Shown here: positions 2,307 to 30,840 of the stretch, one piece after another
Layout: each line of letters opens with the position of its first letter
Position numbering within the stretch: the first letter of the stretch is position 1
Source: Pseudomonadota bacterium
GTDB lineage: Bacteria; Pseudomonadota; Gammaproteobacteria; Burkholderiales; Burkholderiaceae_C
Length of the DNA: 64,000 nt
Assembly: GCA_018241225.1 (NCBI GenBank)
Contig: JAFEEG010000003.1
Location: 28,657 to 92,656 of the forward strand
Direction: 5' to 3'
The notes under the pieces: generated by a model
What the model was told of the DNA's origin: nothing
What the model saw: only the letters and a program-made list of their open reading frames with translations
Databases searched by the model: none
Program-made: the position numbers and the translations under genes

Positions 2307-3431
<1,125 letters not shown>

Positions 3432-3476
3432 GAGCGACGAGAAATGCCCTGGCGCGAGCCGCGAGCGGCCGAAAAC

Positions 3477-15420: not shown

Positions 15421-15480
15421 CGGTCAGTCTCCTGATTGTGGGTGTGACAGCGGGGGGCGGGGGAAAAAGCGGGCGGGCGG

Positions 15481-17370
15481 TCAGCTCGTCTGCTGTGCCT
15501 GTGAAGCCAGGCGGGCTGGTGCGTTAGCGGCGCCGTAGCCGTCATATGCGGCGTCGCGCTGCACCAGCTCGAAGAAGATGCCACCGGCCAGCGGCGGCGT
15601 GTAGGCGTGCAGGTAGTCGCCGCCGCTTGCGCGGTCCAGCAGCACGCCGTGCGCGCGAAGGCGCGCCAGCAGTTCCGGCGCCACGTCCAGGCGCGTCGGA
15701 AGGTCGTCGTAGTAGTTGTCCGAGATCGGCACGAAAGGCACGCCGCGCTCGCGCAGCGCCGCCACGGCGCCGAAGATGTCCTGCGTAGCCAGCGCAATGT
15801 GGTGCACCGTGCCGCCGCCGCGCTTGGACACGCCGCGCGCAATCTGCGTGCTCTGGCTGGTCGACGCGTTGAGCACCAGGCGCACGCTGCGCTCGGCATT
15901 GGCCAGGCCCCGGCTTTGCACCAGGCCGAAGGGGTCGGCCAGCTCCAGGCTTTCGCCCGCTTCCAGGCCCAGCACGGCGCGGGCAAACAGCATCCAGGTG
16001 TGCAACTGGTCGGGCGCCAGGGCCAGGGCCACATGGTCCACGCGCTGCAAGCCCGGGCGGTGGTTGTCGGCCGCTTCGGCACTGCCTTGCTGCACCACGA
16101 AGTCGGTCTTGAACAGAGCTTGCGTGCCAACGCGCGTGTCGACGAAATGCATGAGGTTGCCCCCAGGCATGACCGTGGCCGGCACCCGCATTTCGCCGGG
16201 GCCCACGGGGCTGTCGTGCCAGCGCGAGAGTAGTTGCGTGGCGCGGCCCACGGCCTGCACCGGGTCGGGGCTGCCGATGCCCAGTGCGCACACGGTGCAG
16301 TCGCCGGCCTGCTCGAAGCGCTCGCTGGCGTAGGAGTCCGGCTGCGCGTTCACGATGAAGTGGATGTCGCCCTGGCGGTAAAGACGCACGGCCTTCGAGC
16401 GATGCTGCCCTGCCTGGGCAAAGCCCATGCGCACGAACAGCGCGTCGAGGTTGCGGGCGAGCTTCTCGTCGGCAGCGAACTCGATGAACTGGATGCCGTC
16501 CAGCGTGGGCGCGGGCGGCGGCTCGAACAGCCCGAGCGCAGCAGGCGCCGACGGCAGGCGCTTGCGCATCTCGCTCTCGAGGAACAGCAGCGAGCGCATG
16601 GCGTCCACCGCGGTGCGGCGGTTGGGCGTCTCGCGGAAGATGTCGTTGAAGATCTCCAGCGACAGCGTGCCCTGGTAGCCGCTCTTGAGCACCTGCTCGA
16701 AGAAGTCGAACACCGGCAACTCGCCCTGCCCCGGAAAGCAGCGGTGATGGCGCGCCCATTGCAGCACGTCCATGGCCAGCAGCGGCGCATCGGCCATCTG
16801 CACGAAGAAGATGCGATCGCCCGGCACCTGCGCAATGCCGGCGAAGTCGTCGCGCAGCGAAAGCGTGTGGAAGCTGTCCAGGATCAGGCCCAGTGCCGGA
16901 TGGTCGGCGCTCTGCACGATGTCCCAGGCCTGGCCCCAGCGCGAGGTGGCACGGCCCCACGCCAGCGCCTCGAAGCCGATGCGGATGCCGCGCCGGGCGG
17001 CGCGCTCGGCCAGCTCGTGCAGTTGGGCGGCAGCCAGGGCCGGATCGTCGATGACCAGCGGCGAGGTGTTGGAGCACACCAGCAGCAGCTGCGCGCCCAG
17101 TTGCTGCATCAGGTCGAACTTGCGCTCGGCGCGCTCCAGGTTGCGCTGGAACTGTGCCTGCGGCATGCCCTCGAAGTCGCGCAGCGGCTGGTACAGGTCC
17201 AGCGTCAGGCCCAGGTCGGCGCCGATCTGCCGCAGGTCGGCAGCAGAGCCCTGGAACTGGATGAAGTCGGGTTCGAAGAGCTCATAGCCCTCGAAGCCGG
17301 CAGCCGCAATGGCTTCCAGTTTCTGACGGAGCGTGCCGCTGAGGGACACGGTGGCAATGGATCGGCGCAT
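15481..17370 (-). CDS. quiC: 3-Dehydroshikimate dehydratase fused to an HPPD-like domain (QuiC type)
   Basis: 629 residues in two parts. Residues 1 to about 280 form a xylose-isomerase-like TIM barrel with metal-site motifs IGFEALAWG, LGLILDSFHTL and LSLEIFNDIF; this half converts 3-dehydroshikimate to protocatechuate. The C-terminal half is a pair of VOC modules like 4-hydroxyphenylpyruvate dioxygenase, and its facial triad looks intact (His in RVDHVAL near 440, His in HHIAL near 518, Glu in FFELVQR near 598). This fusion is known for QuiC enzymes of pseudomonads; the second half is often regarded as non-catalytic. It feeds the protocatechuate branch of the beta-ketoadipate pathway, whose other genes are outside the window. 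Confidence 0.92.
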   Translation of the reverse strand: MRRSIATVSLSGTLRQKLEAIAAAGFEGYELFEPDFIQFQGSAADLRQIGADLGLTLDLYQPLRDFEGMPQAQFQRNLERAERKFDLMQQLGAQLLLVCSNTSPLVIDDPALAAAQLHELAERAARRGIRIGFEALAWGRATSRWGQAWDIVQSADHPALGLILDSFHTLSLRDDFAGIAQVPGDRIFFVQMADAPLLAMDVLQWARHHRCFPGQGELPVFDFFEQVLKSGYQGTLSLEIFNDIFRETPNRRTAVDAMRSLLFLESEMRKRLPSAPAALGLFEPPPAPTLDGIQFIEFAADEKLARNLDALFVRMGFAQAGQHRSKAVRLYRQGDIHFIVNAQPDSYASERFEQAGDCTVCALGIGSPDPVQAVGRATQLLSRWHDSPVGPGEMRVPATVMPGGNLMHFVDTRVGTQALFKTDFVVQQGSAEAADNHRPGLQRVDHVALALAPDQLHTWMLFARAVLGLEAGESLELADPFGLVQSRGLANAERSVRLVLNASTSQSTQIARGVSKRGGGTVHHIALATQDIFGAVAALRERGVPFVPISDNYYDDLPTRLDVAPELLARLRAHGVLLDRASGGDYLHAYTPPLAGGIFFELVQRDAAYDGYGAANAPARLASQAQQTS

Positions 17371-17424
17371 GGACGCACTGTAGGGCGCGACCCCCTGCGC
17401 TCACAATGACCCGATTGCAGTCGG

Positions 17425-17441
17425 CGTTCGATCATCGAACG
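17425..17441. promoter_or_regulatory. PcaR/PcaU-like operator upstream of quiC
   Basis: CGTTCGAT-C-ATCGAACG is a perfect 8-bp-arm palindrome, 55-71 bases upstream of the quiC start codon. Its core, GTTCGATCATCGAAC, closely resembles the 15-base PcaR site of Pseudomonas putida as I recall it (GTTCGATAATCGCAC). IclR-family regulators of this group respond to protocatechuate or beta-ketoadipate, which fits a gene making protocatechuate. No IclR gene lies in the window, so the regulator would act in trans. Confidence 0.7.
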
Positions 17442-17555
17442 GTTTCGCGCGACATTCGCGCACATCTGGGGGTTGTCCCTAGCCGTCTGCGGCGCTTGCC
17501 GGCCATCCACGCGCCGGGAAGAGTATGGAGATCGAACGCCGCGAGCTGCGGCTGC

Positions 17556-18968
17556 TCAGGCCCCGGGCTCGAAGGGATTGAGCGCCCGCAGCGGCCTTCC
17601 CCAGGCACGGGCCGGCGCATGCGCGGCACGCTGTTCGCGCCAGCGCCGGTGCGCATTGCGCAGCGCTTCGGCACAGGGGCCGCCATGCCACGCGCCAGAA
17701 GCATCGCTGCTGCTGCGATAGAGGTGCCGCTGGAGCAGTTCGAGCTGCGCGGCCAGGCCCGCATCGCCCAGTTGGGCCGCCCACTGCTGCGGCACGGCGC
17801 CCGCATGCGCCTGGCACCAGGCCAGCAGCGCCTGGTGTGCGCCCTTTGCATCGTTGGCCTGGCAGGCGCCGAGCACGCGCTCGAACATGACGCCGTCGGA
17901 CTGTTCATGGGCGGCAGCCTGCGCCGCGCGATGCTGGCGCCAGCGCGGCCACATCCTGACCACCACGAACGCGAGAACTGCAAGAAGGATCAGCGCCACC
18001 CCCCAGATGCCCAGCCGGACCCAGTCGAGCGGCTTGCGCGGTGCGCTCGGCGCCGCGCCCACTGGCAGCTCGGGCGCAATGCGCGCGCCGGCATGGGCGC
18101 CCGACTTCACCTGCACCGTCACCGCGGGTGCCTGCGCCGTGGCCGGCTTCTGCGTCTGCGGATCGAGCCATTGCAGTTGCACCGCGGGCAAGGTGTAGCG
18201 GCCCGAATCCTCGAACACGTAGGTCACGCGCTCGATGCGCCGCCCGCCGGCAAAGCCGCCGCCCTGGCCGCTCGAGTCGGTCAGCACCGGGTCGGCCACG
18301 TACATCCGCACACCCGACGGTGCCTCGAAATGCGGTGGCGGAATCAGCATCGCCGGGGTGTTGGCGGCCTGGACCTCCACGGTGCGCACGAGCGCATCGC
18401 CCGCCGCGAGCTGCGTCGCGTCGCGGTCCAGGCTCTGGTGGATGGCCAGCGGCGTGGCCGGCATCACCGCGCCAGCGGTGGCGCCTGCGGCCGCGGCGCC
18501 GGCCGGCAGCTGCACGGCGATGCGCGTGGCCGGCAGCGTCAGGCTGGCCTGCGCGGTCTTGCCGTCGTCGGCGTGGTAGCTGAAGTCGATCTTCACCGGC
18601 GGCAGCGTGAAGTCGCCCGCCTGCTGCGCGGTGAACACGTAGGTCTTCTGGATGGTGGCCAGGGTCTGCTCGCCCTCCTGCTCCACGCCGTGGACGCCGC
18701 GATCGTCGGGCATGGTGATCACGGCGCCCGGCACTTCCAGCGTGGGAAAGGGCGGTGCCGACAGGAAGAAGTTGGGCGCCACCACGGTCACCTCGATCTG
18801 CACCTGCTGGCCCACCAGTGCCGGCTGCTTGCCTTGCACCTGCACCCGCACGTCGGGCCCCGAGGCGGCATGGGCCACGCCCGTGGCGAGCGCGAGCTGC
18901 AGCAGTACGGCGAACCACAGTGCCAGTGCCGCGCCCGCCGATGCCACGCGTGACGTGCGGCCCCTCAT
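17556..18968 (-). CDS. BatD-like (oxygen tolerance) membrane protein
   Basis: 470 residues. A signal peptide (AALALWFAVLLQLALATGVAHA) leads into a long extracytoplasmic region of beta-sandwich type (VRVQVQGKQPALVGQQVQIEV, FFLSAPPFPTLEVPGA), then one membrane span (GIWGVALILLAVLAFVVV) and a cytoplasmic tail of about 130 residues. This is the BatD layout found with MoxR and vWA proteins. The start ATG overlaps the stop of the vWA-TPR gene (ATGA). It is the last gene of the nine-gene run from 29642. Its biochemical role is unknown; a part in a periplasm-facing chaperone assembly is inferred. Confidence 0.87.
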   Translation of the reverse strand: MRGRTSRVASAGAALALWFAVLLQLALATGVAHAASGPDVRVQVQGKQPALVGQQVQIEVTVVAPNFFLSAPPFPTLEVPGAVITMPDDRGVHGVEQEGEQTLATIQKTYVFTAQQAGDFTLPPVKIDFSYHADDGKTAQASLTLPATRIAVQLPAGAAAAGATAGAVMPATPLAIHQSLDRDATQLAAGDALVRTVEVQAANTPAMLIPPPHFEAPSGVRMYVADPVLTDSSGQGGGFAGGRRIERVTYVFEDSGRYTLPAVQLQWLDPQTQKPATAQAPAVTVQVKSGAHAGARIAPELPVGAAPSAPRKPLDWVRLGIWGVALILLAVLAFVVVRMWPRWRQHRAAQAAAHEQSDGVMFERVLGACQANDAKGAHQALLAWCQAHAGAVPQQWAAQLGDAGLAAQLELLQRHLYRSSSDASGAWHGGPCAEALRNAHRRWREQRAAHAPARAWGRPLRALNPFEPGA

Positions 18969-20656
18969 GGCTTGGCTCCTTGCTGGCCGGCAACCGGCTG
19001 CGCTGGCGATGCCGGCCGCGCGGGCTGCTGGACCTGCAGGGCGAACTTGCGCGCCAGCATCGCCGTTGGCGAGGTCTGGATGTTGCGCATCCAGGCCTCG
19101 GCGTTCTGCGCAGCGGTGAGCTGCACTTGCTTGCCGCCCTGCTCCTTGGTCTTGTCGAACTCGATCTTGTCGGGCTGCAGGTCGGGCGCCTCTTCCTCGC
19201 CGTCCTTGTGCTGCCTGGCGATGAGCGCCTTCATCAGCGCGAGGTTGGCCTTGGCCTCCTTCCAGTCGGGGCGGCGCTGCAGCGCCTGCGTGTAGAAGGC
19301 GATTGCCGCCTCGTAGCGCCTGCGCTGCGCCAGCGAGTTGCCCTGGTTGAACAGGCTCTCGGGCGAATCCACCAGCGCAAAGGCCTGCTGCGCGGCATCG
19401 AAGCGTCCGGCCCGGTACAGGGCAACGCCGCGCCACATGGGGTCGGTGAAGAGCCCGGCAGCCTTGGCGTAGTCTTCGTCCTCGAATGCGAGCCGACCCT
19501 GCTGGTCTGGCGTGAGCCACCAGTCGATGAAGCGCTTGTGGTGCGACGGCGCGGGCGCGTCGGCGGCCTGCTGTTCATCGGCGGTGGACTCCACCAACTG
19601 GGCCGCGGCCCCGCGCGGAACGCCGGTTGCAGCCAGCAAGGCCGCGAACACCCACGTGCCCAGCCAACGGACGGTCCAGCCCTGGCGAAACCACAACGCC
19701 GACAGCAAGGTGATGGGCAGCACCAGCCACCAGCCGGCTTCCTTCCAGCGTGCGTTGGATTCCGACTCCTTCTGCGCCAGGTGCGACTGCACGCGGTGCT
19801 GCACCCAGGCCACGTCGTCGTCGCCATCGAGCGTGACCGTGGCCACGGGCACGTCGGCATCGCTGCCCAGGCGCTTGAGCGCTTGCACGTCCAGGCGGGC
19901 CGAGCTGGGACGCCCGGCGCTGCCCGGTGCTTCGTCGTCCGGCGTCTTCAGCGGCCCGCCCTGCTCCGTGCCGAAGCCCAGCACCACCGGCAGGCTGCGC
20001 CCGCTGTCTACCTGCGCCTTGAACGCCTCGGTGGCGCCAGGCTCCACGCCGTCGGTGAAAAAGACGATGGTGCCGGGCGTGTCTTCCTTGGCCATGTCGG
20101 CGTCGATGGTGCGCAGCGCCAGCGCGGTGTTCTTGCCGGGCTTGGGCATGATGCTTGTCTGCAGCGCGTCGACAAAGGTCTGGATCAGGCGGCCGTCGTC
20201 AGTCAGCGGCAGCACCAGGTGCGTGCTGCCGGCATAGGCATAGATGGCCGTGCGCGCGCCCTGGCGCAAGGCCAGCAGCGACTTGACCTTGAGCTTGGCC
20301 CGCTCCAGTCGCGTGGGGCTGACGTCCATCGCATCCATGGTCACGCCGAGGTCGATGGCAATGGCCAGCGGGGCCTTCTCTTCCAGGAAAGGCGGCCGTT
20401 CGCGCTCCCAGGTGGGGCCGGCCATGGCCAGCGCGCCCAGCGCCATCAGGGCCGAAGTGAGATGCACCGGGCGCAGGTGCCAGCGCCCCCGCCGGTCCAC
20501 CACCAGCGCATCGAGCAGATGGGGCGCAATGTTCTGGCGCCAGCGCTTGCGCACGTCTTCGCGCCAGCCCACCGCCCACAGCAGCAGGCCCGCCGGCAGC
20601 AAGGCCAGCAGCCACCACGGGCGGATGAAATGGAACTGGGCGAGGCTGTCGAGCAT
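18965..20656 (-). CDS. vWA domain plus TPR membrane protein (BatB-BatC fusion type)
   Basis: 563 residues from the ATG that shares a base with the upstream vWA stop. Order: membrane segment (WWLLALLPAGLLLWAVG), vWA domain (about 90-290), a second span (GWWLVLPITLLSALWF and following), then TPR repeats (about 415-500: AKAAGLFTDPMWRGVALYRA, PESLFNQGNSLAQRRRYEAA) and a Pro/Ala-rich tail. This joins what are BatB and BatC in other species. The metal-site motif is degenerate: DxSxS of active MIDAS sites reads D102-L-G-V-T106, while the downstream TDG is kept. It sits in the MoxR/vWA operon and overlaps both neighbours. Confidence 0.88.
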   Translation of the reverse strand: MLDSLAQFHFIRPWWLLALLPAGLLLWAVGWREDVRKRWRQNIAPHLLDALVVDRRGRWHLRPVHLTSALMALGALAMAGPTWERERPPFLEEKAPLAIAIDLGVTMDAMDVSPTRLERAKLKVKSLLALRQGARTAIYAYAGSTHLVLPLTDDGRLIQTFVDALQTSIMPKPGKNTALALRTIDADMAKEDTPGTIVFFTDGVEPGATEAFKAQVDSGRSLPVVLGFGTEQGGPLKTPDDEAPGSAGRPSSARLDVQALKRLGSDADVPVATVTLDGDDDVAWVQHRVQSHLAQKESESNARWKEAGWWLVLPITLLSALWFRQGWTVRWLGTWVFAALLAATGVPRGAAAQLVESTADEQQAADAPAPSHHKRFIDWWLTPDQQGRLAFEDEDYAKAAGLFTDPMWRGVALYRAGRFDAAQQAFALVDSPESLFNQGNSLAQRRRYEAAIAFYTQALQRRPDWKEAKANLALMKALIARQHKDGEEEAPDLQPDKIEFDKTKEQGGKQVQLTAAQNAEAWMRNIQTSPTAMLARKFALQVQQPARPASPAQPVAGQQGAKP

Positions 20657-21708
20657 CAGGCGCTGCTCCCCTGCTCCACAACCGGCTTGTCGCCTTGCGC
20701 ATCCTGCTTTTCGGCAGAGCGGGCCGCGGCGGCCCGGCGCATCATGGCCAGCGAGGCCATCAGCAACTGGTAGGCAATGACGATCAGCACGGCCGCGCCC
20801 AACGGCCACATGAAAAGCTCGCGCCGGGGCCGCCACGACAGCGTCTTCTGGTTCTGCGGCGTGATGCGATCCAGCGTGGCATAGATCTGCTCCAGCTCAC
20901 CCTGGTTGCCGGCAAAGAAATAGCGCCCGCCGGTGGCGGCCGCCAGTTGGCGCAACAGGTCGAGGTCGACCTTGTCCTCGCCGGTCGCGGCGGGGTCGCC
21001 GATACCCACGGTGTGCAGCGTCACGCCGCGCTCCTTGGCAATCTCGGCGGCCTTGGGCGGCGGCATCTTGCTGGCGGTGTCGTTGCCGTCCGTGAGCAGG
21101 ATCATCACCTTCTGCGGCGCCTTGCTCTGCTCGAACATCTTGATGCCCAGGCCGATCGCGTCGCCCATGGCCGTGCTGGGCCCCGCCATGCCGGGCAGCA
21201 TCTCGTCGATCATGGCCTGCACCAGTGCATGGTCCATGGTGAAGGGCACCTGCGGATAGGGCGCATCGCCGAACACCACCAGGCCGATGCGATCGCCCGG
21301 GCGACGGCCCACGAAGTCGCGCACCACCTGGCGCACCGCATCGACCCGCGCGATGACGGCGCCGTCGGGGCGCTTGTAGTCGCGCGTGTCCATCGACTGG
21401 GACAAATCCAGCGCCAGCAGCAGGTCGCGCGCGGGCTGGATCTTCTCGATGGGCGGGTCCACGAACTGCGGCCTGGCCAGCGCCAGCACCACCAAAGCCC
21501 AGGCCACCGGCGCAATGAGCTTTTGCAGCCAGTGCGTGTGCGGCACCACCGCGCCGGGTGCCGGCTTGAGCCCGACCGCGCTGGCCACCTCGCCGAAGAA
21601 CGGCAGGCGCACCGAGGCGCTTTCCTCCCGGTAGGGCGGCATCAGCCACCACACCAGCAACGGCAAGGGGAGCAAGGCCAGGAGCCAGGGAAACTCAAGT
21701 TGATACAT
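20656..21708 (-). CDS. batA: vWA domain membrane protein (BatA type)
   Basis: 350 residues from MYQLEFPW. An N-terminal span (FPWLLALLPLPLLVWWLMPP), a second span (WALVVLALARP), then a vWA domain with an intact MIDAS, DLSQS at 101-105 and LLTDGNDTAS later, and a C-terminal span (LGAAVLIVIAYQLLMASLAMM). BatA partners MoxR AAA ATPases and binds divalent metal through the MIDAS. The start overlaps the end of the DUF4381 gene by 14 bases, and the stop overlaps the vWA-TPR start (TGATG). An upstream in-frame ATG at 21735 is less likely because it lies inside the previous gene. Confidence 0.9.
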   Translation of the reverse strand: MYQLEFPWLLALLPLPLLVWWLMPPYREESASVRLPFFGEVASAVGLKPAPGAVVPHTHWLQKLIAPVAWALVVLALARPQFVDPPIEKIQPARDLLLALDLSQSMDTRDYKRPDGAVIARVDAVRQVVRDFVGRRPGDRIGLVVFGDAPYPQVPFTMDHALVQAMIDEMLPGMAGPSTAMGDAIGLGIKMFEQSKAPQKVMILLTDGNDTASKMPPPKAAEIAKERGVTLHTVGIGDPAATGEDKVDLDLLRQLAAATGGRYFFAGNQGELEQIYATLDRITPQNQKTLSWRPRRELFMWPLGAAVLIVIAYQLLMASLAMMRRAAAARSAEKQDAQGDKPVVEQGSSA

Positions 21709-22219
21709 GGCCCTGGATCCATTGGCGCGAGGCATCGATCAGCACGCGCACGTCGTTGGGTGAAACGCGCGCCAGCGCCTGCGGGTCGTGGTACTGGATT
21801 TCGCGCACCAGCGGCGCCAGCGCCTGCGCGCCGTGCGTGGCATGGCCCGCGTTGGCCAGGAGAAACTGCGCCCACTCGGCACCGCTCTGGCTGGCCACCA
21901 GCTCGCGCGGCCAGGCCGCGAGCGCGCAGCGCTTGACCAGTGCCGGCAGCGCCTCGAGCAACTGCGGCCCCGTGGCCGGGTCGGCCTGCCAGCTCGACTC
22001 CAGTCGGCGCAGCTCGGCCAGCGCTTCGCGCCGATAGCGGTTGCGCCACCAGCGCCGCGCGCCGCGCCAGGCCAGCCACAGCGCCAGCACGGCGAGCAGG
22101 ACACCCAGCACCTCCCAGCCCACGGTCTGCGGCCGCCACGATACGGGCGGCGGCAGCACCACGTCGGCCAGTTGCGACAACGAGGGAATTGCGTCGGAGG
22201 CGTTGGCGGCTTCGCTCAT
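21695..22219 (-). CDS. DUF4381 family membrane protein
   Basis: 174 residues from MSEAANAS. The sequence runs SQLADVVLPPPVSWRPQTVGW, a single membrane span (EVLGVLLAVLALWLAW), then a basic and alpha-helical cytoplasmic part (RREALAELRRLESSW). DUF4381 proteins occur almost only in MoxR-DUF58-vWA clusters, where they are thought to be part of the membrane assembly; their activity is unknown. The start overlaps the DUF58 stop (ATGA) and the end overlaps batA by 14 bases, so synthesis of the set is coupled. Confidence 0.85.
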   Translation of the reverse strand: MSEAANASDAIPSLSQLADVVLPPPVSWRPQTVGWEVLGVLLAVLALWLAWRGARRWWRNRYRREALAELRRLESSWQADPATGPQLLEALPALVKRCALAAWPRELVASQSGAEWAQFLLANAGHATHGAQALAPLVREIQYHDPQALARVSPNDVRVLIDASRQWIQGHVST

Positions 22220-23280
22220 TGCCTGCTCCCGCGCCGGGACGGGGCGTTGTCCTGCCCGAGCAGGCGGCGCAGCTGGGGCGCGGTTTCCTCGGCAGCCGAC
22301 AGCGGCAGCACCGGCACGCCGATGCGGTGACGCCATTCGAACAGCTCGCGGCTGCGCTCGCTGACGAATTCGGCAATGCCGCGGCGCACCGCATCGCGGC
22401 CCAGGCCCAGCTCCACCTGCAGCTCTCCGTCGCTGACCACCAGTTCGCCCGATGGCGGCAGCTCGCTCATGAAGGGATCGTGCACCACCACGGCCAGCAG
22501 GTCGTTGCGCGCGGCAATTTGCGACATCAGCTCGCGCGTGAGTTCGTCGTGGCCGTCGAAGTCGCTCACCACCACCACCAGGTGGTCGTGGTGCGCCAGC
22601 CTGGCCGCCTGCCCGAGCGCCTGGTTGAGCTGCGATGCGCCACGCCTGGCCGGTGCATCGGCGCGCAGCTGCTGGTTGCGCCGGGCGATCTCGCCAAGCA
22701 GCTGTTGCACCGCATCGCGGCTTCGCTTGGGCCGCAGCTGGGTGAAGTCGTCGTCGCCGAACACCACGCCACCCACGCGGTCGCCATCCATCAGCACACG
22801 CCACGCCACCAGCGCCGCGGCTTCTGCCGCGCTGACCGACTTCATGGCGCGCCGGGTGCCGAAGAACATGTTCATTCGCTGGTCCACCAGCAGCAGCACG
22901 GGCCGGTCTTTTTCTTCGGAGTACACGCGAACGTGCGGCACGCTGGTGCGTGCCGTCACGCGCCAGTCCATGCTGCGGATGTCATCGCCCGGCAGGTAGG
23001 GGCGCAGCTCCTCGAAGTCGAGCCCGCGCCCGCGCACGCGCGAGGCATGCCGGCCGGCAAGCACGCTGTGCACCGGTTGGCGCGGCTTGAAGTGGAAGTC
23101 TCGGGCGGCCACTTCCAGGCTGGCCAGGTACTCGGTGCTCACGTGCACGCCGGCAACGACACTGGCCTCGCCCGCCGGCTGCGCAGCCGGCGTGGAGCCG
23201 CCCGCGCGGGACAGCCGCGCCGACAAGGCATTGCCGACCCTTGCCAGGCCGGCCAGTTGCAGCCGCTTGCCGTTGAACAT
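22216..23280 (-). CDS. DUF58 domain protein
   Basis: 354 residues, soluble by appearance. The DUF58 hallmark is plain: GRGLDFEELRPYLPGDDIRSMDW followed by RTSVPHVRVYSEEKDRP (about residues 80-125). The C-terminal half resembles a degenerate vWA fold (LLLVDQRMNMFFG, VVVVSDFDGHDE). DUF58 proteins are standard partners of MoxR ATPases. It starts 25 bases after the MoxR stop and overlaps the DUF4381 start. Function beyond the complex is not known. Confidence 0.9.
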   Translation of the reverse strand: MFNGKRLQLAGLARVGNALSARLSRAGGSTPAAQPAGEASVVAGVHVSTEYLASLEVAARDFHFKPRQPVHSVLAGRHASRVRGRGLDFEELRPYLPGDDIRSMDWRVTARTSVPHVRVYSEEKDRPVLLLVDQRMNMFFGTRRAMKSVSAAEAAALVAWRVLMDGDRVGGVVFGDDDFTQLRPKRSRDAVQQLLGEIARRNQQLRADAPARRGASQLNQALGQAARLAHHDHLVVVVSDFDGHDELTRELMSQIAARNDLLAVVVHDPFMSELPPSGELVVSDGELQVELGLGRDAVRRGIAEFVSERSRELFEWRHRIGVPVLPLSAAEETAPQLRRLLGQDNAPSRRGSRQ

Positions 23281-23305
23281 GAAAGCCGCCCCGTCGTCCG
23301 CTGGC

Positions 23306-24283
23306 TCAGGCCACCGCGACCTTCTGCACCAGGCGGTCGATCACGGCATCGGCCGTGATGCGCGCCGCATGCGCTTCGTACGACAGGATCAGGCGGTGGC
23401 GAAACACCTCGTGCACCACGCTCTGCACGTCCTCGGGCACCACGTAGTCGCGGCCTTGCAGCCAGGCATAGGCTCGCGCCACCTTGTCCAGGCCGATGGA
23501 GCCGCGCGGGCTCACGCCCACCTGGATCCACTGCGCCAGATCGGCATCGATGGCCGCGGGCTCGCGCGTGGCCTGCACCAGCGCCACGATGTACTGCTCG
23601 ACGGCTTCGCTGACTTGCAGCGCATGGATTTCCGCGCGCGCAGCGAAGATGCTTTCCTGCGCCAGGCGCGACTGGCCCTGCCCGCTGGCGGCATGCGACT
23701 CGTGCGCTTCCTCGCTGCGGGCCAGCCGCACGATCTGCGCTTCGGCGCCGGCCTCGGGGTAGCCCACGCTCAGGTGCATCAGGAATCGGTCCATCTGCGC
23801 CTCGGGCAAGGGATAGGTGCCCTCCTGCTCGATGGGGTTCTGCGTGGCCATCACCAGGAACAGCGGCGGCAACGGATGCGTCGCGCCGCCCACGGTCACC
23901 TGGCGCTCTTCCATGGCTTCGAGCAAGGCCGCCTGCACCTTGGCCGGCGAGCGGTTCACTTCGTCGGCCAGCACCAGGTTGGCGAACAGCGGCCCCTGCT
24001 GAAAGCGGAACTCGCCCTTGCCGCCTTCGCTGTAGTAGATCTCCGAGCCGGTGATGTCGGCCGGCAGCAGGTCGGGCGTGAACTGGATGCGCGAGAGCCT
24101 GGCGTCCAGGTGCTTGGCCAGGCTCTTGATGGCGCGGGTCTTGGCCAGGCCAGGCAGGCCTTCGACCAAGAGGTGCCCATCGGCCAGCAGGCCCAGTAGC
24201 AGGCGCTCGATCATGCGCTCCTGGCCGATGATCGATTCGCCCATGCGGGCCTTGAGTTGAAGAACGTCGTCGCGTGCGGTCAT
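23306..24283 (-). CDS. MoxR family AAA+ ATPase
   Basis: 325 residues, usual for MoxR. Walker A GLPGLAKT (42-49), Walker B NLVLADEVNR (102-111) and sensor 1 region FLVMATQNPIEQEGTYPLPEAQ, with the lid domain at the C-terminus. MoxR ATPases work with vWA partners as chaperones that insert metal or activate enzymes, for example methanol dehydrogenase or CO dehydrogenase. Here it is followed by DUF58, DUF4381, two vWA proteins and BatD, and preceded 22 bases upstream by a spermidine-synthase-like gene and an arylsulfatase, which suggests a client to test. Confidence 0.94.
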   Translation of the reverse strand: MTARDDVLQLKARMGESIIGQERMIERLLLGLLADGHLLVEGLPGLAKTRAIKSLAKHLDARLSRIQFTPDLLPADITGSEIYYSEGGKGEFRFQQGPLFANLVLADEVNRSPAKVQAALLEAMEERQVTVGGATHPLPPLFLVMATQNPIEQEGTYPLPEAQMDRFLMHLSVGYPEAGAEAQIVRLARSEEAHESHAASGQGQSRLAQESIFAARAEIHALQVSEAVEQYIVALVQATREPAAIDADLAQWIQVGVSPRGSIGLDKVARAYAWLQGRDYVVPEDVQSVVHEVFRHRLILSYEAHAARITADAVIDRLVQKVAVA

Positions 24284-24305
24284 GGAGATCCTTCTTCGTT
24301 TCTTT

Positions 24306-26876
24306 TCAGCGCGCGCCGCCGGTGAACCACTGGAAGTACGGGTTGGACGGTGCTTCGCGCATCAGCAGCCGGACATCGTTGGCCCAGCCCTCGCGGTCAC
24401 CCTGGTAGGCGAAAAGACCTGCGCGATAGAAAAGATAGAGCAGTTCGCGTTCCCGGTCGATGGCCTCGGTCAGCGCCGGGTCCGCGCCCTGCAAGGCAGG
24501 CTCGGTGCGCGCCTGCAGCATCGTGCCCAGCACTTGCGGGAACTCCTCGCGCCGCACCCAGCTGGCGTACTCGATGCGCGGATGGTCGTCGGTGACGGGC
24601 TGTGCATTGCCGGCATACCCTTCGAGCATGGCACGGTCGCCCACCCAGGTGGCGAGCAAGGCCGCCGGCGAATCCACGCCAACCTCGGCCAGGGCCTTGG
24701 CGACTTCGGGTTGCTTCATGCGCTGCGCAATGCGCGCAGCATCCAGCACCATCGGTTGCATCGAGCCCACCAGCATCATCTCGTGCAGCTCGGTGGTCCA
24801 CAGCGTGGCGTGCGGAAACACGGCCAGGAAGCTTTGCACCAGCGAGCGGGTGTCTTCGTCGTTCTGCGTGGGCAGCGGCAGCCACTGCGCCACCATGCCG
24901 CCAGTCTGCAGCCGCGCGGCGGCCAGGCGGTAGAAGTCGCTCGAATACAGGTTGACCACGCCCGCGGCCGATGGCGGCGGCGGCTCCAGGGTGATGAGGT
25001 CGTAGCGCCCCTGCCCTTGCAGCAACTCGCGCCGGCCGTCGCGCACACGAATCTGCATGCGCGCATCGCGCGTGAGGTCGTAGTTGCCACGGAAGTTCGG
25101 CGCCGCGCGCACAACGGCTGGCAGCAGTTCGGCCACGACGCGTTCCTCGAGGCCCGGGTAGGCCAGCAAGGCTCCACCGGTGATACCCGTGCCCAGGCCG
25201 ATCACCAGCGCGGACTTGGGCTCGCCGCCATGCACGATCAGCGGCAGCAGGGCCTGCAGCCGCATGTAGCGCAACGAGGTCATGGCATCGCCCGAGTTGG
25301 ACACACCCTGGATATACAAGCGGTTGAAGTGGTTCTGCCCGGCGCGCTGCTGCACCACCGCCACCGTGGCACCACGGCTTTCTTCATAAGCCACCAGCTC
25401 GCCCCCGCGCGACTGGCTCAACAGGCGCGCCAGCCGATCAGGCGGCGCCAGCATGGCGCCCGCCACCACGAAGCCCGCGAGCGCAGCCACGCCCCAGCGC
25501 GGCACTGCGCGTACGCCGGGCCCCGAAAGCACCGCCACCAGGCCCAGCGCGCTGGCCGCCACGGCCAGCACCGCCAGCGTGCGCACCAGCCCCAGCCACG
25601 GAACGAGCACGAAGCCCGCCAGCACCGTGCCGACGATGCCCCCGAGCGTGTTCAAGGCCAGCACCGTGCCTACCTCGCGACCCACGCCGCCGTTGCCCGA
25701 CGCCAGTCGCAACGCCACCGGAAACGCAGCACCGAGCAGCAGCGTGGGCAGGAAGACGACGCTCAACGCTGCCGTGGCAAAGCGCGCGCACATGGCCGCC
25801 AAAAGGCTGCCGGTGGCGCCGCGCGTCCACTGCGAGGCCAGCGTCTGCAATTGCACCAGCCAGTCGCCCAGCAGTGCCACTTCAAGCAGCGCGAGTGCGC
25901 CCGCGGTGCTGATGAGCACCGCGAATACGCCCCACGGATCGGCCAGCCGATCGGCCCGCCGCGCGATCCAGGCGCTGCCCAGCATCAGGCCGAGCAGGTA
26001 GGTGGCCAGCACGATCGCAAAGGCCACGCTGCGCGTGCTGATGAACTGCACGATGGCCTGCGACCACACCACTTCGTAGCCCAGCGCGAGGCCGCCCGCA
26101 ATGGCGTAGAGCACCACCGCAAGGCGGGCATGCCGCGCCTGCTGCGAATCGTCGGAAGCGGCTTGCGTGCCGGCGGGCTCGGCACCCGACTCATCGGCGG
26201 TGGTGCCACGCCGGGCAAGCGCCCAGGCCGCCACCGCAACCAGCACATTGAGCAACGCCGCTGCCGCCGCGCTGCCCCGCAATCCGAACCATGGAATGAA
26301 ACAGAAGGCGGCCAGCAAGGTGCCGGCAACGGCACCCAACGTGTTGGCCGCGTACAGGCGCCCGCCAGCCCAGGCCCGTTGATCGAGCATGGGCCGCAGC
26401 GCGCGCATGAGAACGGGCAGCGTGCCGCCCAGCAACGTGGCCGGCAGCGCCACCAGCAGCAGTGGCAGCAGCCACGCCGCAGGCCCGATGTGCGCATCGA
26501 GCCAGACAAAGGCAGGCGCAATGGCGCCCAGCGCGAAAGTCACCGCCAAGCCGAGCAGGCCTGCGGCCAGTTCGAGCACGGCGTACAGCCGCCACGGTTG
26601 CCCCGCCCGGTCGGCCCAGCGCCCGAAGAGCCAGCCGCCGGCCGCCAGGCCGGCGAAGAAGGCGCCCACGCCCAGGCTCACGGCATGGACGTCCACGCCC
26701 ACCACGAGGGAAAGCTGCCGGATCCACAGCACCTGGTAGACCAGGGCTGCGACACCCGACGCGAATAGAAGCGCGGCCGGCCAGGCCAGCCGCACCCGGG
26801 TGGGGGAGCCGGCAGCCGTGGCGCGGCCCTTCTGCGCGGCCTTGGCCGCCTTGGCCTGCCGCATCACACCCTGCAC
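24306..26876 (-). CDS. Multi-span membrane protein fused to a spermidine synthase-like domain
   Basis: 856 residues. About the first 480 form many hydrophobic segments resembling a duplicated transporter-like fold (ALLFASGVAALVYQVLWIRQL recurs in type as LGYEVVWSQAIVQFISTRSVA). The C-terminal part is a class I methyltransferase fold of the spermidine synthase family, with LVIGLGTGITGGALLAYPGLEE near residue 560 and the LEPPPPSAAGVVNLYSSDFY segment. Such fusions are common but their substrates are unresolved; a polyamine role is not shown. Alternative start: ATG four codons downstream. Ten bases separate it from the arylsulfatase gene and 22 from MoxR. Confidence 0.85.
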   Translation of the reverse strand: MQGVMRQAKAAKAAQKGRATAAGSPTRVRLAWPAALLFASGVAALVYQVLWIRQLSLVVGVDVHAVSLGVGAFFAGLAAGGWLFGRWADRAGQPWRLYAVLELAAGLLGLAVTFALGAIAPAFVWLDAHIGPAAWLLPLLLVALPATLLGGTLPVLMRALRPMLDQRAWAGGRLYAANTLGAVAGTLLAAFCFIPWFGLRGSAAAAALLNVLVAVAAWALARRGTTADESGAEPAGTQAASDDSQQARHARLAVVLYAIAGGLALGYEVVWSQAIVQFISTRSVAFAIVLATYLLGLMLGSAWIARRADRLADPWGVFAVLISTAGALALLEVALLGDWLVQLQTLASQWTRGATGSLLAAMCARFATAALSVVFLPTLLLGAAFPVALRLASGNGGVGREVGTVLALNTLGGIVGTVLAGFVLVPWLGLVRTLAVLAVAASALGLVAVLSGPGVRAVPRWGVAALAGFVVAGAMLAPPDRLARLLSQSRGGELVAYEESRGATVAVVQQRAGQNHFNRLYIQGVSNSGDAMTSLRYMRLQALLPLIVHGGEPKSALVIGLGTGITGGALLAYPGLEERVVAELLPAVVRAAPNFRGNYDLTRDARMQIRVRDGRRELLQGQGRYDLITLEPPPPSAAGVVNLYSSDFYRLAAARLQTGGMVAQWLPLPTQNDEDTRSLVQSFLAVFPHATLWTTELHEMMLVGSMQPMVLDAARIAQRMKQPEVAKALAEVGVDSPAALLATWVGDRAMLEGYAGNAQPVTDDHPRIEYASWVRREEFPQVLGTMLQARTEPALQGADPALTEAIDRERELLYLFYRAGLFAYQGDREGWANDVRLLMREAPSNPYFQWFTGGAR

Positions 26877-26886
26877 TCAGACACCA

Positions 26887-28602
26887 TCACTTCTTCTGCT
26901 GAGCGCCCTGCATCTGCTGCTGCTGCCGCTGCATGGCGGCCTTCACCTTGCTCTTCACGTCGGCCACGGCCTGGTCGATGGTGAAGCTGGCCGGGATCTG
27001 GCTTGGGGGATAGTCAACGAAGGTCTGCAGGAAGTTGCCGGCACGGCGTCCGCCCTCGAACAGGACGAACGCGTTCTCGGTCTGCATGTTCTCGTACCCG
27101 TTCGTCGGGCCGATGTCCGCGCGCTCGTACGGGTCCAGCCGCAGGTTGTAGAACTTGGGCGTTCTCAGGCAGGTGAAGGGCTCTTTCCAGATCTGCATGC
27201 CGCCCTGCGCCCGCTGCTCGCAGAAGACCACCTTGAAGGCCGTCGGGTTCGTCGCGCCGGGCAGCGACGTGTCGAAGCGCATCGCCACCAGTTCTGCGTC
27301 GTCGTTGAAGTAGAAGAACTCGTCACGCGAACTCTTCTCGGTCTGCCCGGTCAGCATGGGCAACTGGTTGTAGCCGTCCAGGTGAACCTTGAAGTTCTTG
27401 CCACCGATGCCGGTGCCCTTGAGCAGGCGGTCCTTGATGTTGGTGTCGCCCGCGGCGGCCAGCAAGGTGGGGAACCAGTCCAGGCCCGAGAAGAGGCCGT
27501 TGCTCGTGGTGCCCGGCTTGATCTTGTCAGGCCAGCGAACCATGGCGGGCACGCGGAAGGCGCCTTCCCAGTTGGAATCCTTCTCGCTGCGGAACGGCGA
27601 ATTCGCGGCGTCGGGCCACGAGAAGAAGTTGGGGCCGTTGTCGGTGGTGAAGATGACGATGGTGTCCTTCGTGATGCCGGCATCGTCCAGCGTCTTCAGG
27701 AGCTTGCCCACGTTCTGGTCCATCTCCCACATGCCGTCGGCATATTCGTGGCCTGGGCCGAGGCCGGCCTTTCCGCGGTTCTCCGGCTTCACATGGGTGT
27801 ACATGTGCATGCGCGTGAAGTTCATCCACACGAAGAAGGGCTTGTCGGCCTTCTGCTTCTTGATGAAGTCGATGGCGGCGCCGGTGGTCTCGTCGTCGAT
27901 GGTCTCCATCCGCTTCTTTGTCAGCGGGCCGGAGTCCTGCACCTTGCCGTCGGCGGACGACTTGATGACGCCGCGCGGGTTGTACGCCTTCAGGAACTCG
28001 GGGCTGTTCTTGAACCAGTAGGGCCGCTCGGGCTCTTCTTCCGCGTTCAGGTGGTAGAGGTTGCCGAAGAATTCGTCGAAGCCGTGCTTCGTGGGCAGGA
28101 AACGGTCCTGGTCACCCAGGTGGTTCTTGCCGAACTGCGCAGTGTTGTAGCCCAGCGGCTTGAGCGCCTGGGCAATGGTCACGTCGCGGTCCTGCAGGCC
28201 GGCCGGAGCGCCCGGCACACCCACCTTCGAGAGGCCCGTGCGGAACACGCTCTGGCCGGTCAGGAAGCTCGAGCGACCGGCCGTGCAGCTGTTCTCGGCG
28301 TAGTAGTCGGTGAACTTCATGCCTTCGGTGGCAATGCGATCGATGTTGGGCGTCTTGTAGCCCACCACGCCCAGTCCGAATGCGCTGACGTTGGTCTGCC
28401 CCACGTCATCGCCGAAGATCACCAGGATGTTGGGTTTCTTGCCGCCGCCATTGGCCGGCGGCTGGTTCTTGGTCTGGCCTTGCGCCTGCGGCGGCTTGGC
28501 CTGCGCGCCCGCGCTGGTGGCGCCGAGCACGGCACCCAGTGCCATACCCGCCGTCACCAGCACGCGTGCCCAGCGCGTGCGCTCAGCTGTCAGTTGAAAC
28601 AT
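26887..28602 (-). CDS. Exported arylsulfatase (type I, formylglycine-dependent)
   Basis: 571 residues with a signal peptide (residues 1 to about 34, ending TSAGAQA), so periplasmic or secreted. It hydrolyses sulfate esters to free sulfate. The sulfatase signature SCTAGRSSFLTGQ places the formylglycine cysteine at 106 (C-x-A-x-R variant), and metal aspartates appear in LVIFGDDVG and IVIFTTDNGPN. No formylglycine-generating enzyme or anSME gene is in the window, so activation must come from elsewhere. It lies 23 bases after a HAD lipoprotein gene and 10 before the spermidine-synthase-like gene. Sulfate it frees could feed the Sbp/CysTWA system encoded 15 kb away. Confidence 0.92.
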   Translation of the reverse strand: MFQLTAERTRWARVLVTAGMALGAVLGATSAGAQAKPPQAQGQTKNQPPANGGGKKPNILVIFGDDVGQTNVSAFGLGVVGYKTPNIDRIATEGMKFTDYYAENSCTAGRSSFLTGQSVFRTGLSKVGVPGAPAGLQDRDVTIAQALKPLGYNTAQFGKNHLGDQDRFLPTKHGFDEFFGNLYHLNAEEEPERPYWFKNSPEFLKAYNPRGVIKSSADGKVQDSGPLTKKRMETIDDETTGAAIDFIKKQKADKPFFVWMNFTRMHMYTHVKPENRGKAGLGPGHEYADGMWEMDQNVGKLLKTLDDAGITKDTIVIFTTDNGPNFFSWPDAANSPFRSEKDSNWEGAFRVPAMVRWPDKIKPGTTSNGLFSGLDWFPTLLAAAGDTNIKDRLLKGTGIGGKNFKVHLDGYNQLPMLTGQTEKSSRDEFFYFNDDAELVAMRFDTSLPGATNPTAFKVVFCEQRAQGGMQIWKEPFTCLRTPKFYNLRLDPYERADIGPTNGYENMQTENAFVLFEGGRRAGNFLQTFVDYPPSQIPASFTIDQAVADVKSKVKAAMQRQQQQMQGAQQKK

Positions 28603-28625
28603 CGTCCTTCTCTCCTTTCGGTACT

Positions 28626-29642
28626 TCAGGGCTTGCCCGGGAAAATCTGCTTCCAGTCTTTCTTCATGCTGACCACGACCCAGTTGCGGCGCGGCGCTTC
28701 GTCCAGCGCCTTGTCCAGCTTGCCGAAAGGCGACTGGCGGTCGTAGGCAAACTCGCGCTCGCCGTCGTCGTGATGAACCAGAAGGCCCAGGCGCCTGCCT
28801 GGCCCGGTGGTGGCGTACTGCAGCATCTGCAGGTCGCCATCGGAGTTGCCGAAAGCCAGGATGGGTTGCTGGCCGATGTGCATGTAGATGCCCACCGGCT
28901 TGCCCGGCCCGTCATTGATGAAGTCCAGCTTGGGCTGGCGCATCAGCGACTTGCCGTCGAAGGCAACACCCTGCGAAGAACCCACCACCTGCTCGGGCGG
29001 AATGCCATACACCTCCTGCGTCCAGGGGCGCATCACCTCCATGGTGCCGCCCGAGACGATGTAGGTCTTGAAGCCCTTGGAGCGCAGATAGCTCAGCAAC
29101 TCCAGTTGCGGCTGGTACACGGTTTCGGTGTAGGGGCGCTTGAGCGTGGGATGCCGCGCGGTGGCGAACCACTGGCGCACCGTGCGGTCGTACTCTTCCA
29201 CCGACATGCCGCTGTTGGCCTGCACCAGCAGATCGAGCAGGGGCTTCTCGCCCAGCGCCAGCGCGCCCTTGAGGTCGTTGGCAGCCAGGGCCTTGTACAC
29301 GGGGTTGTCCGCCCACTGCGGATTGCGGGGCGCGGCCGCCTTGACCTGGTCGATCATGAAGGCGAACTGCGTGTACATGGGTTGCTCCACCCACAGCGTT
29401 CCGTCGTTGTCGAAGGTGGCAATGCGCTGCGCCGGCGGCACGTAGTTGGGCGAGCCGTCGCGCGTCACGTCGTTGACGAAATCGACAATGGCCTGCCGTG
29501 CCGGTCCGTCGGACCACGAAGGCAAGGGATCGGTGCCTGAAAGAACCGCGCAGCCTGTTGCACCCCACGCCACGAAGCCCGCAACGAGCCACGAAGCCGC
29601 CCGCTTCCACCATGTCCTGCCTGATTGAGAAAAGACTGCCAT
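28626..29642 (-). CDS. HAD superfamily phosphatase-like lipoprotein
   Basis: 338 residues. The N-terminus has a basic start, a hydrophobic stretch and a lipobox ATGC with Cys31, so it is probably an outer- or inner-membrane lipoprotein facing the periplasm. The HAD motif I is FDNDGTLW (Asp78, Asp80), motif II YIVSGGT, and a motif IV-like region is GNSDGDLQML. It resembles phosphoserine-phosphatase-like haloacid dehalogenase proteins; the substrate is unknown. It is the first gene of the nine-gene minus-strand run and precedes the arylsulfatase. The Shine-Dalgarno (GAGG) is unusually close to the ATG. Confidence 0.85.
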   Translation of the reverse strand: MAVFSQSGRTWWKRAASWLVAGFVAWGATGCAVLSGTDPLPSWSDGPARQAIVDFVNDVTRDGSPNYVPPAQRIATFDNDGTLWVEQPMYTQFAFMIDQVKAAAPRNPQWADNPVYKALAANDLKGALALGEKPLLDLLVQANSGMSVEEYDRTVRQWFATARHPTLKRPYTETVYQPQLELLSYLRSKGFKTYIVSGGTMEVMRPWTQEVYGIPPEQVVGSSQGVAFDGKSLMRQPKLDFINDGPGKPVGIYMHIGQQPILAFGNSDGDLQMLQYATTGPGRRLGLLVHHDDGEREFAYDRQSPFGKLDKALDEAPRRNWVVVSMKKDWKQIFPGKP

Positions 29643-29805
29643 TCCTCACAACCCTCTTGTTCCGAGTTGAAGTGTTTTGATCTATACGTTGCCGCGGGCC
29701 TGTTCTTGTTCTGCGACGCTGCGCATTTAACCCGGGTGCCGTCGAGCGTAACGTTGTTGTACGACGCTGGCAATCGTTATGCGTACGAACGTGGTCGCTT
29801 CACAT

Positions 29806-30840
29806 TCATCCTGCTTTCAATCGCCGCTCCAGCCATGCGCTGTAGCGAGACAAGCCGAAGCACAGCACCCAGTAGACCAGCGCAAGAAACAGATAGCCCT
29901 CGAGGTAGAAAGGCCGCCATACAGGATCGCCGCCCAGCGCCAGGCCCAGCGCCCCGGTGAGTTCGAACAGGCCCACGATGGTGACGAGCGAGGTGTCCTT
30001 GAGCGTACCGATGACTGCGCCCATCAACGCCGGCACCACGATACGCAGCGCCTGTGGCAACACGATGTCGCGCTGCACTGCCCAACGGCCAAAGCCCAGC
30101 GCCATGGCTGCATCGGTCTGGCCACGCGGCACCGCCTGCAGCCCGCCGCGAATGATCTCGGCCACGTAGGCCGCAACGAACAAGCCCAGACCCGCAAGCA
30201 CGCGCACCAGCACGTCGGGCTGCCAGCCTGCAGGCCACAGCAGCGGCAGCAGGAAGGACGCCATGAACAGCACCGAGATGAGCGGCACACCGCGGATGAG
30301 TTCGATGTAGGTGCTGCACAGCGTGCGCACTGCAGGCCACGATGAGCGCCGCCCGAGAGCCAGCAGAAGTGACAGCGGAAAGGCCAGCGCCAGGCTCACC
30401 ACCGCCAGGCCGATGGTCAGCGGCAGGCCGCCCCACCGGTTGGTGGGCACATAGTCCAGGCCGAACAAGCCGCCGCGCATGAGCACGACGAAGCCCGACA
30501 ACACCACGATCCAGGCCGGCACAAGCCAGCGCCGCCAGCTGCCGGGCCACGCGCTGAGCATCGTCAGGCCCGCAAGCAGGCTCACCGCCACGGCCGGACG
30601 CCATTGGTCCTCGAAGGGGTAGCGCCCGAACAGGATGGGCCGCCACTTCTCGGCCACGACGCCCCAGCATGCACCTTCGCGATGGGCCCGGCACAACTGC
30701 GCATCGGGCCGGAAACTGGCGTCGAGCACCGCCCACTCCAGCGCATGCCAGCCTGCCCAGGCCAGCAGCGCCGCAAGCAGCAGCGAGGTGACAGCGCGCA
30801 GCGGCGAGCCCCACAGGTCCTTGGCCATGGCGGACTTCAT
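29806..30840 (-). CDS. aapM: Polar amino acid ABC transporter permease (AapM type)
   Basis: 344 residues from MKSAMAKDLW, whose ATG overlaps the AapQ stop (ATGA). About eight hydrophobic segments, and the EAA loop of permeases around AAMALGFGRWAVQRDIVLPQALRI. AapM differs from other polar amino acid permeases by its long N-terminal part, seen here. With AapQ and the binding protein AapJ it would take up a broad range of L-amino acids. The ATPase gene aapP, which normally follows aapM, is absent: 163 bases of non-coding DNA and then the HAD lipoprotein gene come next. Confidence 0.9.
   Translation of the reverse strand: MKSAMAKDLWGSPLRAVTSLLLAALLAWAGWHALEWAVLDASFRPDAQLCRAHREGACWGVVAEKWRPILFGRYPFEDQWRPAVAVSLLAGLTMLSAWPGSWRRWLVPAWIVVLSGFVVLMRGGLFGLDYVPTNRWGGLPLTIGLAVVSLALAFPLSLLLALGRRSSWPAVRTLCSTYIELIRGVPLISVLFMASFLLPLLWPAGWQPDVLVRVLAGLGLFVAAYVAEIIRGGLQAVPRGQTDAAMALGFGRWAVQRDIVLPQALRIVVPALMGAVIGTLKDTSLVTIVGLFELTGALGLALGGDPVWRPFYLEGYLFLALVYWVLCFGLSRYSAWLERRLKAG

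Follow-up and report, generated by a model that had tools for sequence, protein, structure and literature searches.

NorQD is a MoxR-vWA activator of one enzyme, as is CbbQO, and MxaS of the methylotrophs is a DUF58-type protein. The mxaRSACKLD cluster of methylotrophs combines a MoxR ATPase and von Willebrand factor A (vWA) proteins, MxaC and MxaL, with an adjoining periplasmic Ca2+ enzyme, and mxaRSACKL has been tied to insertion of Ca2+ into methanol dehydrogenase (PMC3615186; papers given by PMC number are cited here for excerpts of their text). In CbbQO, a MoxR ATPase and a vWA adaptor act on one enzyme, and CbbO binds rubisco via its vWA domain (PMC8718961). The Bat (Bacteroides aerotolerance) operon encodes MoxR, DUF58, BatA-like vWA, vWA-TPR, and BatD proteins, and its function was called elusive in 2012 (PMC3557215). 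MoxR-vWA systems of a different kind have also been treated (PMC7159879). A similar gene set is described here from a soil bacterium of the Burkholderiales (assembly GCA_018241225.1), in a window of 64,000 nucleotides, the whole stretch of DNA that was analyzed. One operon of nine genes, all on the minus strand from 29642 to 17556, holds the gene for an exported sulfatase and those for a membrane ATP-driven machine. The genes encode, in order, a HAD hydrolase, the sulfatase, a fused MFS-like/spermidine-synthase-like membrane protein (SPD), MoxR, DUF58, DUF4381, vWA, vWA-TPR, and BatD proteins; the last six are called MoxR-Bat below. We somewhat favor the reading that this is a sulfatase-dedicated MoxR-Bat system, which would act at the periplasmic face, most likely by inserting or securing Ca2+.

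The locus differs from each of these systems. In contrast to mxaRSACKLD, the proposed client is a formylglycine sulfatase and not a pyrroloquinoline quinone (PQQ) dehydrogenase, DUF4381 and BatD-type proteins are present, and relatives of the system carry a formylglycine-generating enzyme (FGE). Unlike the Bat operon, it has a specific enzyme attached. CbbQO consists of two proteins and activates an enzyme of the cytosol, whereas in the window the target is exported and several vWA/BatD proteins are located in the membrane. FGE and the anaerobic sulfatase maturase (anSME) likewise act on S1 sulfatases and occur in the same gene clusters as MoxR-Bat; they make formylglycine, whereas the MoxR-Bat part would be a further step. 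No treatment of a sulfatase paired with MoxR, a Bat operon, or vWA/AAA+ proteins was found in the titles and abstract starts of the matching papers in one open-licence library, which is not proof of absence. The word sulfatase is absent from the excerpt of a 2025 study of Riemerella MoxR (PMC11834572).

The linkage of the sulfatase with MoxR-Bat is well supported by genome comparison. Sulfatase relatives were present in 19 of 101 genomes of the genus (80 matches, E 1e-60), and 100 of the 101 had a MoxR match (E 1e-60); these counts were made by hand from the match listings, with near meaning within 10 kb. MoxR of at least 82% identity was found in eight genomes, and a sulfatase of at least 67% in those eight and in G361 (G numbers denote genomes and L numbers loci). 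The complete cluster occurs with identical gene order in seven genomes, the window's own, G335, G385, G308, G354, G360, and G359, and in G361 it is cut by a contig end inside SPD. G310 has HAD-SPD-MoxR-Bat together and two same-clade sulfatases elsewhere in the genome (loci L107, L108, and L109). Ten of the 80 sulfatase matches have at least 67% identity; seven of these are near MoxR, one is cut by a contig end, and two (G310) are apart. None of the remaining 70 is near MoxR among the matches listed (p 3.8e-8); the split was made by identity, and counting both G310 sulfatases with the others gives 7/8 vs. 0/72.

A neighborhood search, which the sequence-only reading had proposed for Burkholderiales, found the linkage far beyond the strain and that order. 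In a sample of 399 genomes from the order (two such samples were taken as the same; the three to five best first-look candidates per genome were scored), 22 possess a sulfatase at E 1e-120 or better, five of them at 68% identity or more. Those five genomes have the five best MoxR matches of the 399, and MoxR lies about 2 to 3 kb away in all four relatives. None of the 17 genomes with more distant sulfatases was among the 37 with this MoxR subfamily (p 3.8e-5). Starting from MoxR instead, 20 loci were hand-picked from strong matches in the order and phylum samples; nine carry the sulfatase, and one of the remaining 11 is truncated at a contig end.

Named genomes were scanned with 12 sulfatase queries, 10 of them MoxR-linked; at least 595 stretches matched, 590 were confirmed, and the best 80 were kept. 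MoxR was within about 10 kb in 28 of these best 80 sulfatase relatives, under 18 genus-level labels. The linked loci belong to Beta-, Gamma-, and Alphaproteobacteria, a Bacteroidia, and a Caldithrix metagenome-assembled genome. An additional Desulfoluna locus has vWA and BatD genes at its edge. There are 13 gene orders among the 28 when genes out of view are treated as differences, and the position of the sulfatase relative to MoxR alone takes three forms: upstream, downstream, and divergent. One arrangement is FGE-HAD-sulfatase-SPD-MoxR-Bat. Others are MoxR-Bat-HAD-sulfatase-SPD (Pseudomonas), sulfatase-MoxR-Bat (Shewanella and Vibrio), sulfatase-HAD-MoxR-Bat (Albibacillus and Pseudoruegeria), MoxR-Bat-sulfatase-HAD (Rhodobacteraceae), sulfatase-MoxR-Bat-FGE-HAD (Rhizobium), and a divergent form in Caballeronia. 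A single frozen operon is ruled out by this variation. HAD is in view at 18 of the 28 linked loci and SPD at 13, which disfavors either as a constant partner. The sulfatase is the steadiest partner of the MoxR-DUF58-DUF4381-vWA-vWA/TPR-BatD set, since the set stays together while gene order, HAD, SPD, and type of maturase change. Ten Actinobacteria loci, with the class judged from titles, had sulfatase-HAD-FGE in seven and MoxR in none.

Some of the named loci contain further genes. In Vibrio, a gene whose product combines multihaem cytochrome c and TPR domains lies between the sulfatase and MoxR at both loci read (L218:11516-13870 and L219:11565-13937). In the Caldithrix locus, a PafA-like alkaline phosphatase, a metalloenzyme of the sulfatase superfamily, is found in that place (L231:4182-5921; 517 bits, below the 650 cut-off). 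In Cupriavidus pauculus (L190), Bat-type genes flank FGE-HAD-sulfatase-SPD on both sides (3064-6136 and 14147-15177).

The linked sulfatases can also be described by their predicted export. By a simple hydrophobicity and start/ribosome-site rule, 50 of 52 linked sulfatase matches were exported vs. 46 of 77 unlinked (p 1e-6); the rows are not independent, several sulfatases being counted in some loci, and the count leaves out locus L104, which probably comes from the genome of L189, as well as matches with fewer than 380 residues aligned. The two linked exceptions look exported by eye, L194 with a signal peptide and L169 as a probable lipoprotein with a misjudged start. Thus, no clearly cytosolic sulfatase was found among the 52 by rule and eye, and cytosolic sulfatases were rejected as clients. 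Lipoprotein-like linked sulfatases occur at L170, L190, L191, and L214. Twin-arginine translocation (Tat)-like signals are present on the sulfatases of L171, L172, L176, L209 (by eye), and L217, and an anchorless FGE is in the locus at L172, L176, L209, and L217. A Tat-like signal and an anchorless FGE in the same locus suggest a fold-then-export route for these four sulfatases.

Trees were made from rows partly picked for linkage, so they are descriptive and not tests. The MoxR tree has 58 rows, 44 of them linked, and is without L104 and L181 (contig end); the linkage label changes three times vs. 12.7 in shuffles, and a single clade (support 99/99) holds 10 of the 14 unlinked rows. The sulfatase tree has 38 rows, 18 of them linked, with five changes vs. 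13. The window's own genome (6.4 Mb) has three clear MoxR genes, and the other two, on contigs C44 and C13, are without such a sulfatase in the surrounding stretches. An ordinary client-free Bat operon was rejected for the window; the core paralogue on C44 and the unlinked MoxR clade show that form instead.

The sequence-only reading had stated that no FGE is encoded here. This holds for the window, where tblastn with both of the genome's own FGEs found none, and fails for the genome, which has two strong FGE matches (279 and 273 bits), each with both catalytic cysteines, and three weaker loci over the cut-off. FGE1, on contig C5, has no hydrophobic anchor and adjoins a sulfatase without a signal peptide. 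FGE2 (PF03781, 273 bits) lies outside the operon on contig C1 (L269:8978-10228), among neighbors that look unrelated; it has an N-terminal hydrophobic anchor and the motif GGSFLCNEDFCMSYR with the two active cysteines of an FGE. The hint that the machine stands in for a missing FGE is therefore not supported for this genome, as the two matches rule out FGE absence as its reason and relatives carry the anchored type in the cluster. FGE2-type enzymes are in view at 14 MoxR-linked loci, three of the same genus (L103, L104, and L105), four of the same order (L169, L170, L177, and L184), and seven in named genomes (L189 Variovorax, L190 Cupriavidus, L191 Pandoraea, L196 Caballeronia, L214 Cupriavidus, L226 Achromobacter, and L231 Caldithrix); L189 and L104 are probably one genome, so the 14 are partly redundant. 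FGE1-type enzymes are in view at two of the 28 linked named loci. The anchor is over threshold in 11 of the 14 proteins; L170 and L214 are below it, with a similar segment by eye, and L231 is lipoprotein-like by eye. Six genus members are without an FGE in the cluster (own, G335, G385, G361, G310, and G308); all of them carry the enzyme at another place in the genome, and in every case it has both cysteines and an anchor. As relatives often have the gene in the cluster, the window cluster has probably lost or relocated it.

Other formylglycine makers also accompany the cluster. In G180, of the window's family, a Ser-type sulfatase (STAGR) comes directly after an anSME and is followed by MoxR-Bat, and Vibrio owensii has a Ser-type sulfatase, an anSME (502 bits, over the cut-off), and MoxR in a row. 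FGE was searched for with PF03781 at E 1e-40 in 24 genomes and E 1e-8 in 11, with the Cys pair as the criterion, and anSME in 23 genomes, which cover part of the linked ones. An anSME was present in all seven linked Vibrio, Aliivibrio, and Shewanella genomes, and the Cys pair was not found in the FGE-like matches of the alignable Vibrio and Shewanella genomes. The linkage is also seen with cytosolic FGE. Because it persists with cytosolic FGE and with Ser-type sulfatase plus anSME, MoxR-Bat, as judged from gene content, accompanies the sulfatase whatever makes formylglycine and does not replace that step. In five of six linked named Pseudomonas, G924, and two Rhodobacterales (L248 and L268), the searches found no Cys-pair FGE and no anSME, several of the searched genomes being drafts. 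Loci with an intact CTAGR MoxR-linked sulfatase and neither maturase found are L192, L194, L195, L210, L254, and L174 (Pseudomonas and kin) and L248 and L268 (Rhodobacterales). A formylglycine route of unrecognized kind is possible in such genomes. Given these intact sulfatases, it is conceivable, and rather improbable, that MoxR-Bat is a third, general arm of envelope sulfatase maturation whose cluster there may add an unrecognized formylglycine-forming activity beside metal loading.

The same pairing recurs, shuffled, in distant bacteria, which points to a role of the machine in completing or activating the sulfatase. In the favored reading, cytosolic MoxR and DUF58 would drive the membrane vWA proteins and BatD. 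On the periplasmic side, the vWA/BatD proteins would come into contact with the sulfatase, either while it folds or afterwards, and would place its buried divalent metal, most likely Ca2+, or lock it in position, yielding active enzyme. A separate enzyme would form the formylglycine: a membrane-anchored FGE (in many Betaproteobacteria; here encoded on another contig), a cytosolic FGE, or anSME. HAD and SPD would be accessories. Ca2+ is plentiful outside the cell and scarce in the cytosol, where no linked sulfatase clearly resides. Together with the essential Ca2+ of S1 sulfatases (PMC10154612) and the mxa and CbbO precedents, this leads us to infer a metal step. G310 counts in favor, both halves being retained though separated. 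Several observations weigh on the other side. MoxR is not in view at 52 of the 80 relatives, some on short contigs, and 46 exported matches are unlinked, which means that not every such sulfatase requires the machine. The fraction 28/80 is inflated by the 10 linked rows among the 12 queries. The metal step is based on analogy, a canonical metal-ion-dependent adhesion site (MIDAS) is present in just one of the two vWA proteins, and the Tat-like signals at L171, L172, and L176 indicate that some clients may cross the membrane already folded. Finally, G310 retains HAD-SPD-MoxR-Bat as a unit without the sulfatase.

The pairing could instead reflect co-regulation only, with joint expression of a sulfatase for nutrient scavenging and a Bat operon for envelope maintenance and no direct contact between machine and sulfatase. 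Bat proteins elsewhere have been examined for stress traits (PMC3557215), and the exported sulfatases with no MoxR neighbor in view would fit this. On the other hand, divergent (L196, L177, and L184), opposite-strand (L171), and shuffled arrangements favor more than one shared transcript, and neither 10 same-subfamily MoxR loci with enough flank nor the core paralogue L035 of the window's own genome is near such a sulfatase. Co-regulation alone is unlikely. That an ordinary Bat operon adjoins the sulfatase by chance is exceedingly improbable. Members of this MoxR subfamily are widespread in the phylum, occurring in 151 of 398 genomes, yet chance neighbors are ruled out by the genus- and order-wide counts and by the 28/80, where an assumed 3 to 8 MoxR genes per 5 Mb would give about 1 to 3% (the loci being non-independent samples).

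Clients other than the sulfatase were also considered. The machine could serve FGE, for example by loading copper or presenting unfolded sulfatase to it, as an FGE with both cysteines, mostly membrane-anchored, is in the cluster of many Betaproteobacteria. This is quite improbable because the linkage persists with anSME and Ser-type sulfatase (G180 and Vibrio owensii) and in Pseudomonas and Rhodobacterales genomes where no Cys-pair FGE was found. It is very improbable that the HAD lipoprotein or SPD is the client and the sulfatase a passenger. Both are in the operon, and G310 keeps them with MoxR-Bat; its two same-clade sulfatases elsewhere and the incomplete presence of HAD and SPD at linked loci argue against this, in a comparison that favors the sulfatase since the loci were found through it. 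The sequence-only reading had proposed that the machine matures or regulates the sulfatase or the HAD lipoprotein at the periplasmic face. The sulfatase part is strengthened by the shuffled linkage, the matched order-wide presence, and the exported clients; HAD as sole client is unlikely.

The layout of the operon agrees with that reading, which had listed nine same-strand genes with gaps of at most 25 nucleotides and many overlaps. The coordinates are as it gave them, the gaps are 23 nt (HAD-sulfatase), 10 nt (sulfatase-SPD), 22 nt (SPD-MoxR), and 25 nt (MoxR-DUF58), and the final five genes overlap. Its family names were matched by profile searches (e.g., Sulfatase PF00884, AAA_3, DUF58, and BatD; Table 1). 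It had held that a terminator or start between the sulfatase and MoxR would speak against the idea. Sequence scans found no terminator-like site in junctions 28602-28626, 26876-26887, and 24283-24306 and no sigma-70-like site in 15000-32000, so one transcript for the whole operon is likely. None of the eight scanned flanking genes is related in family; they encode ABC transporter parts, peptide deformylase, MFS transporters, GlnD, and an isomerase-dioxygenase fusion.

Table 1. Putative features of the sulfatase and MoxR-Bat operon, in window coordinates.
Feature	Position	Strand	Basis
HAD-superfamily hydrolase, predicted lipoprotein, first operon gene	28626..29642	-	PF12710 46 bits
Exported S1-type (formylglycine) sulfatase, 571 aa, proposed client	26887..28602	-	PF00884 182 bits, signal peptide
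Sulfatase active-site motif C106-T-A-G-R110, Cys for conversion to formylglycine	28273..28287	-	alignment
SPD, fused MFS-like/spermidine-synthase-like membrane protein, 856 aa, 12 hydrophobic segments	24306..26876	-	NF037959 141 bits
MoxR AAA+ ATPase, sulfatase-linked branch	23306..24283	-	AAA_3 209 bits, AAA_lid_2 76 bits, MoxR tree
DUF58 protein, vWA-like without canonical MIDAS, no hydrophobic segment found	22216..23280	-	PF01882 148 bits
DUF4381 protein, one hydrophobic segment	21695..22219	-	DUF4381 104 bits
BatA-like vWA membrane protein; start may be internal ATG near 21708	20656..21735	-	VWA PF00092 74 bits
MIDAS metal-site motif DLSQS in BatA-like vWA domain	21394..21408	-	sequence motif
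BatB/C-like vWA-TPR protein, without canonical DxSxS MIDAS	18965..20656	-	VWA_2 PF13519 and TPR; start picked by eye
BatD-like protein, hydrophobic segments at N- and C-terminus	17556..18968	-	BatD PF13584 36 bits, DUF7939 54 bits; start picked by eye

The CTAGR motif at residue 106 fits the pattern C/S-x-A/P-x-R and is that of a Cys-type S1 formylglycine sulfatase. C106, R110, K159, H161, H266, D321, N322, and K341 are invariant in 12 aligned sulfatase rows, and D65 and D66 nearly so; we take these residues to be metal ligands or catalytic. The substrate cannot be named because the best solved-structure match is too distant (185 bits). MoxR with AAA_3 and AAA_lid_2 is followed by DUF58, DUF4381, vWA, vWA-TPR, and BatD, with matches over cut-off, as in a MoxR-Bat operon. 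The first vWA protein has DLSQS and TDG, presumably a BatA-type MIDAS. A bpMoxR match to the window MoxR (55 bits) is over cut-off and weaker than AAA_3. No VMAP, iSTAND, FtsH, or beta-propeller third component, as in ternary MoxR-vWA conflict systems, was found among the nine genes, and no PQQ dehydrogenase (mxaF/mxaI linkage) in the nine proteins or the eight flanking genes, the part of the window scanned for it. The HAD protein has a lipobox-like ATGC, read from the sequence, with the Cys31 codon near 29550-29552, and its closest solved structure is 4ovy (378 bits). The spermidine-synthase-like domain of SPD has EPPPP where active aminopropyltransferases presumably carry Asp, and SPD thus may not make spermidine.

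In animals, formylglycine is formed in the endoplasmic reticulum, an arrangement comparable to the periplasmic side. The membrane-anchored FGE suggests that formylglycine is formed on the periplasmic side in some Gram-negative bacteria. For the MoxR-Bat family, a recurrent, exported, and easily assayed partner enzyme makes the question of its client directly testable. If the favored reading is true, sulfatase maturation, usually described only in terms of formylglycine formation, would gain a step, and this could matter for producing active sulfatases in bacteria.

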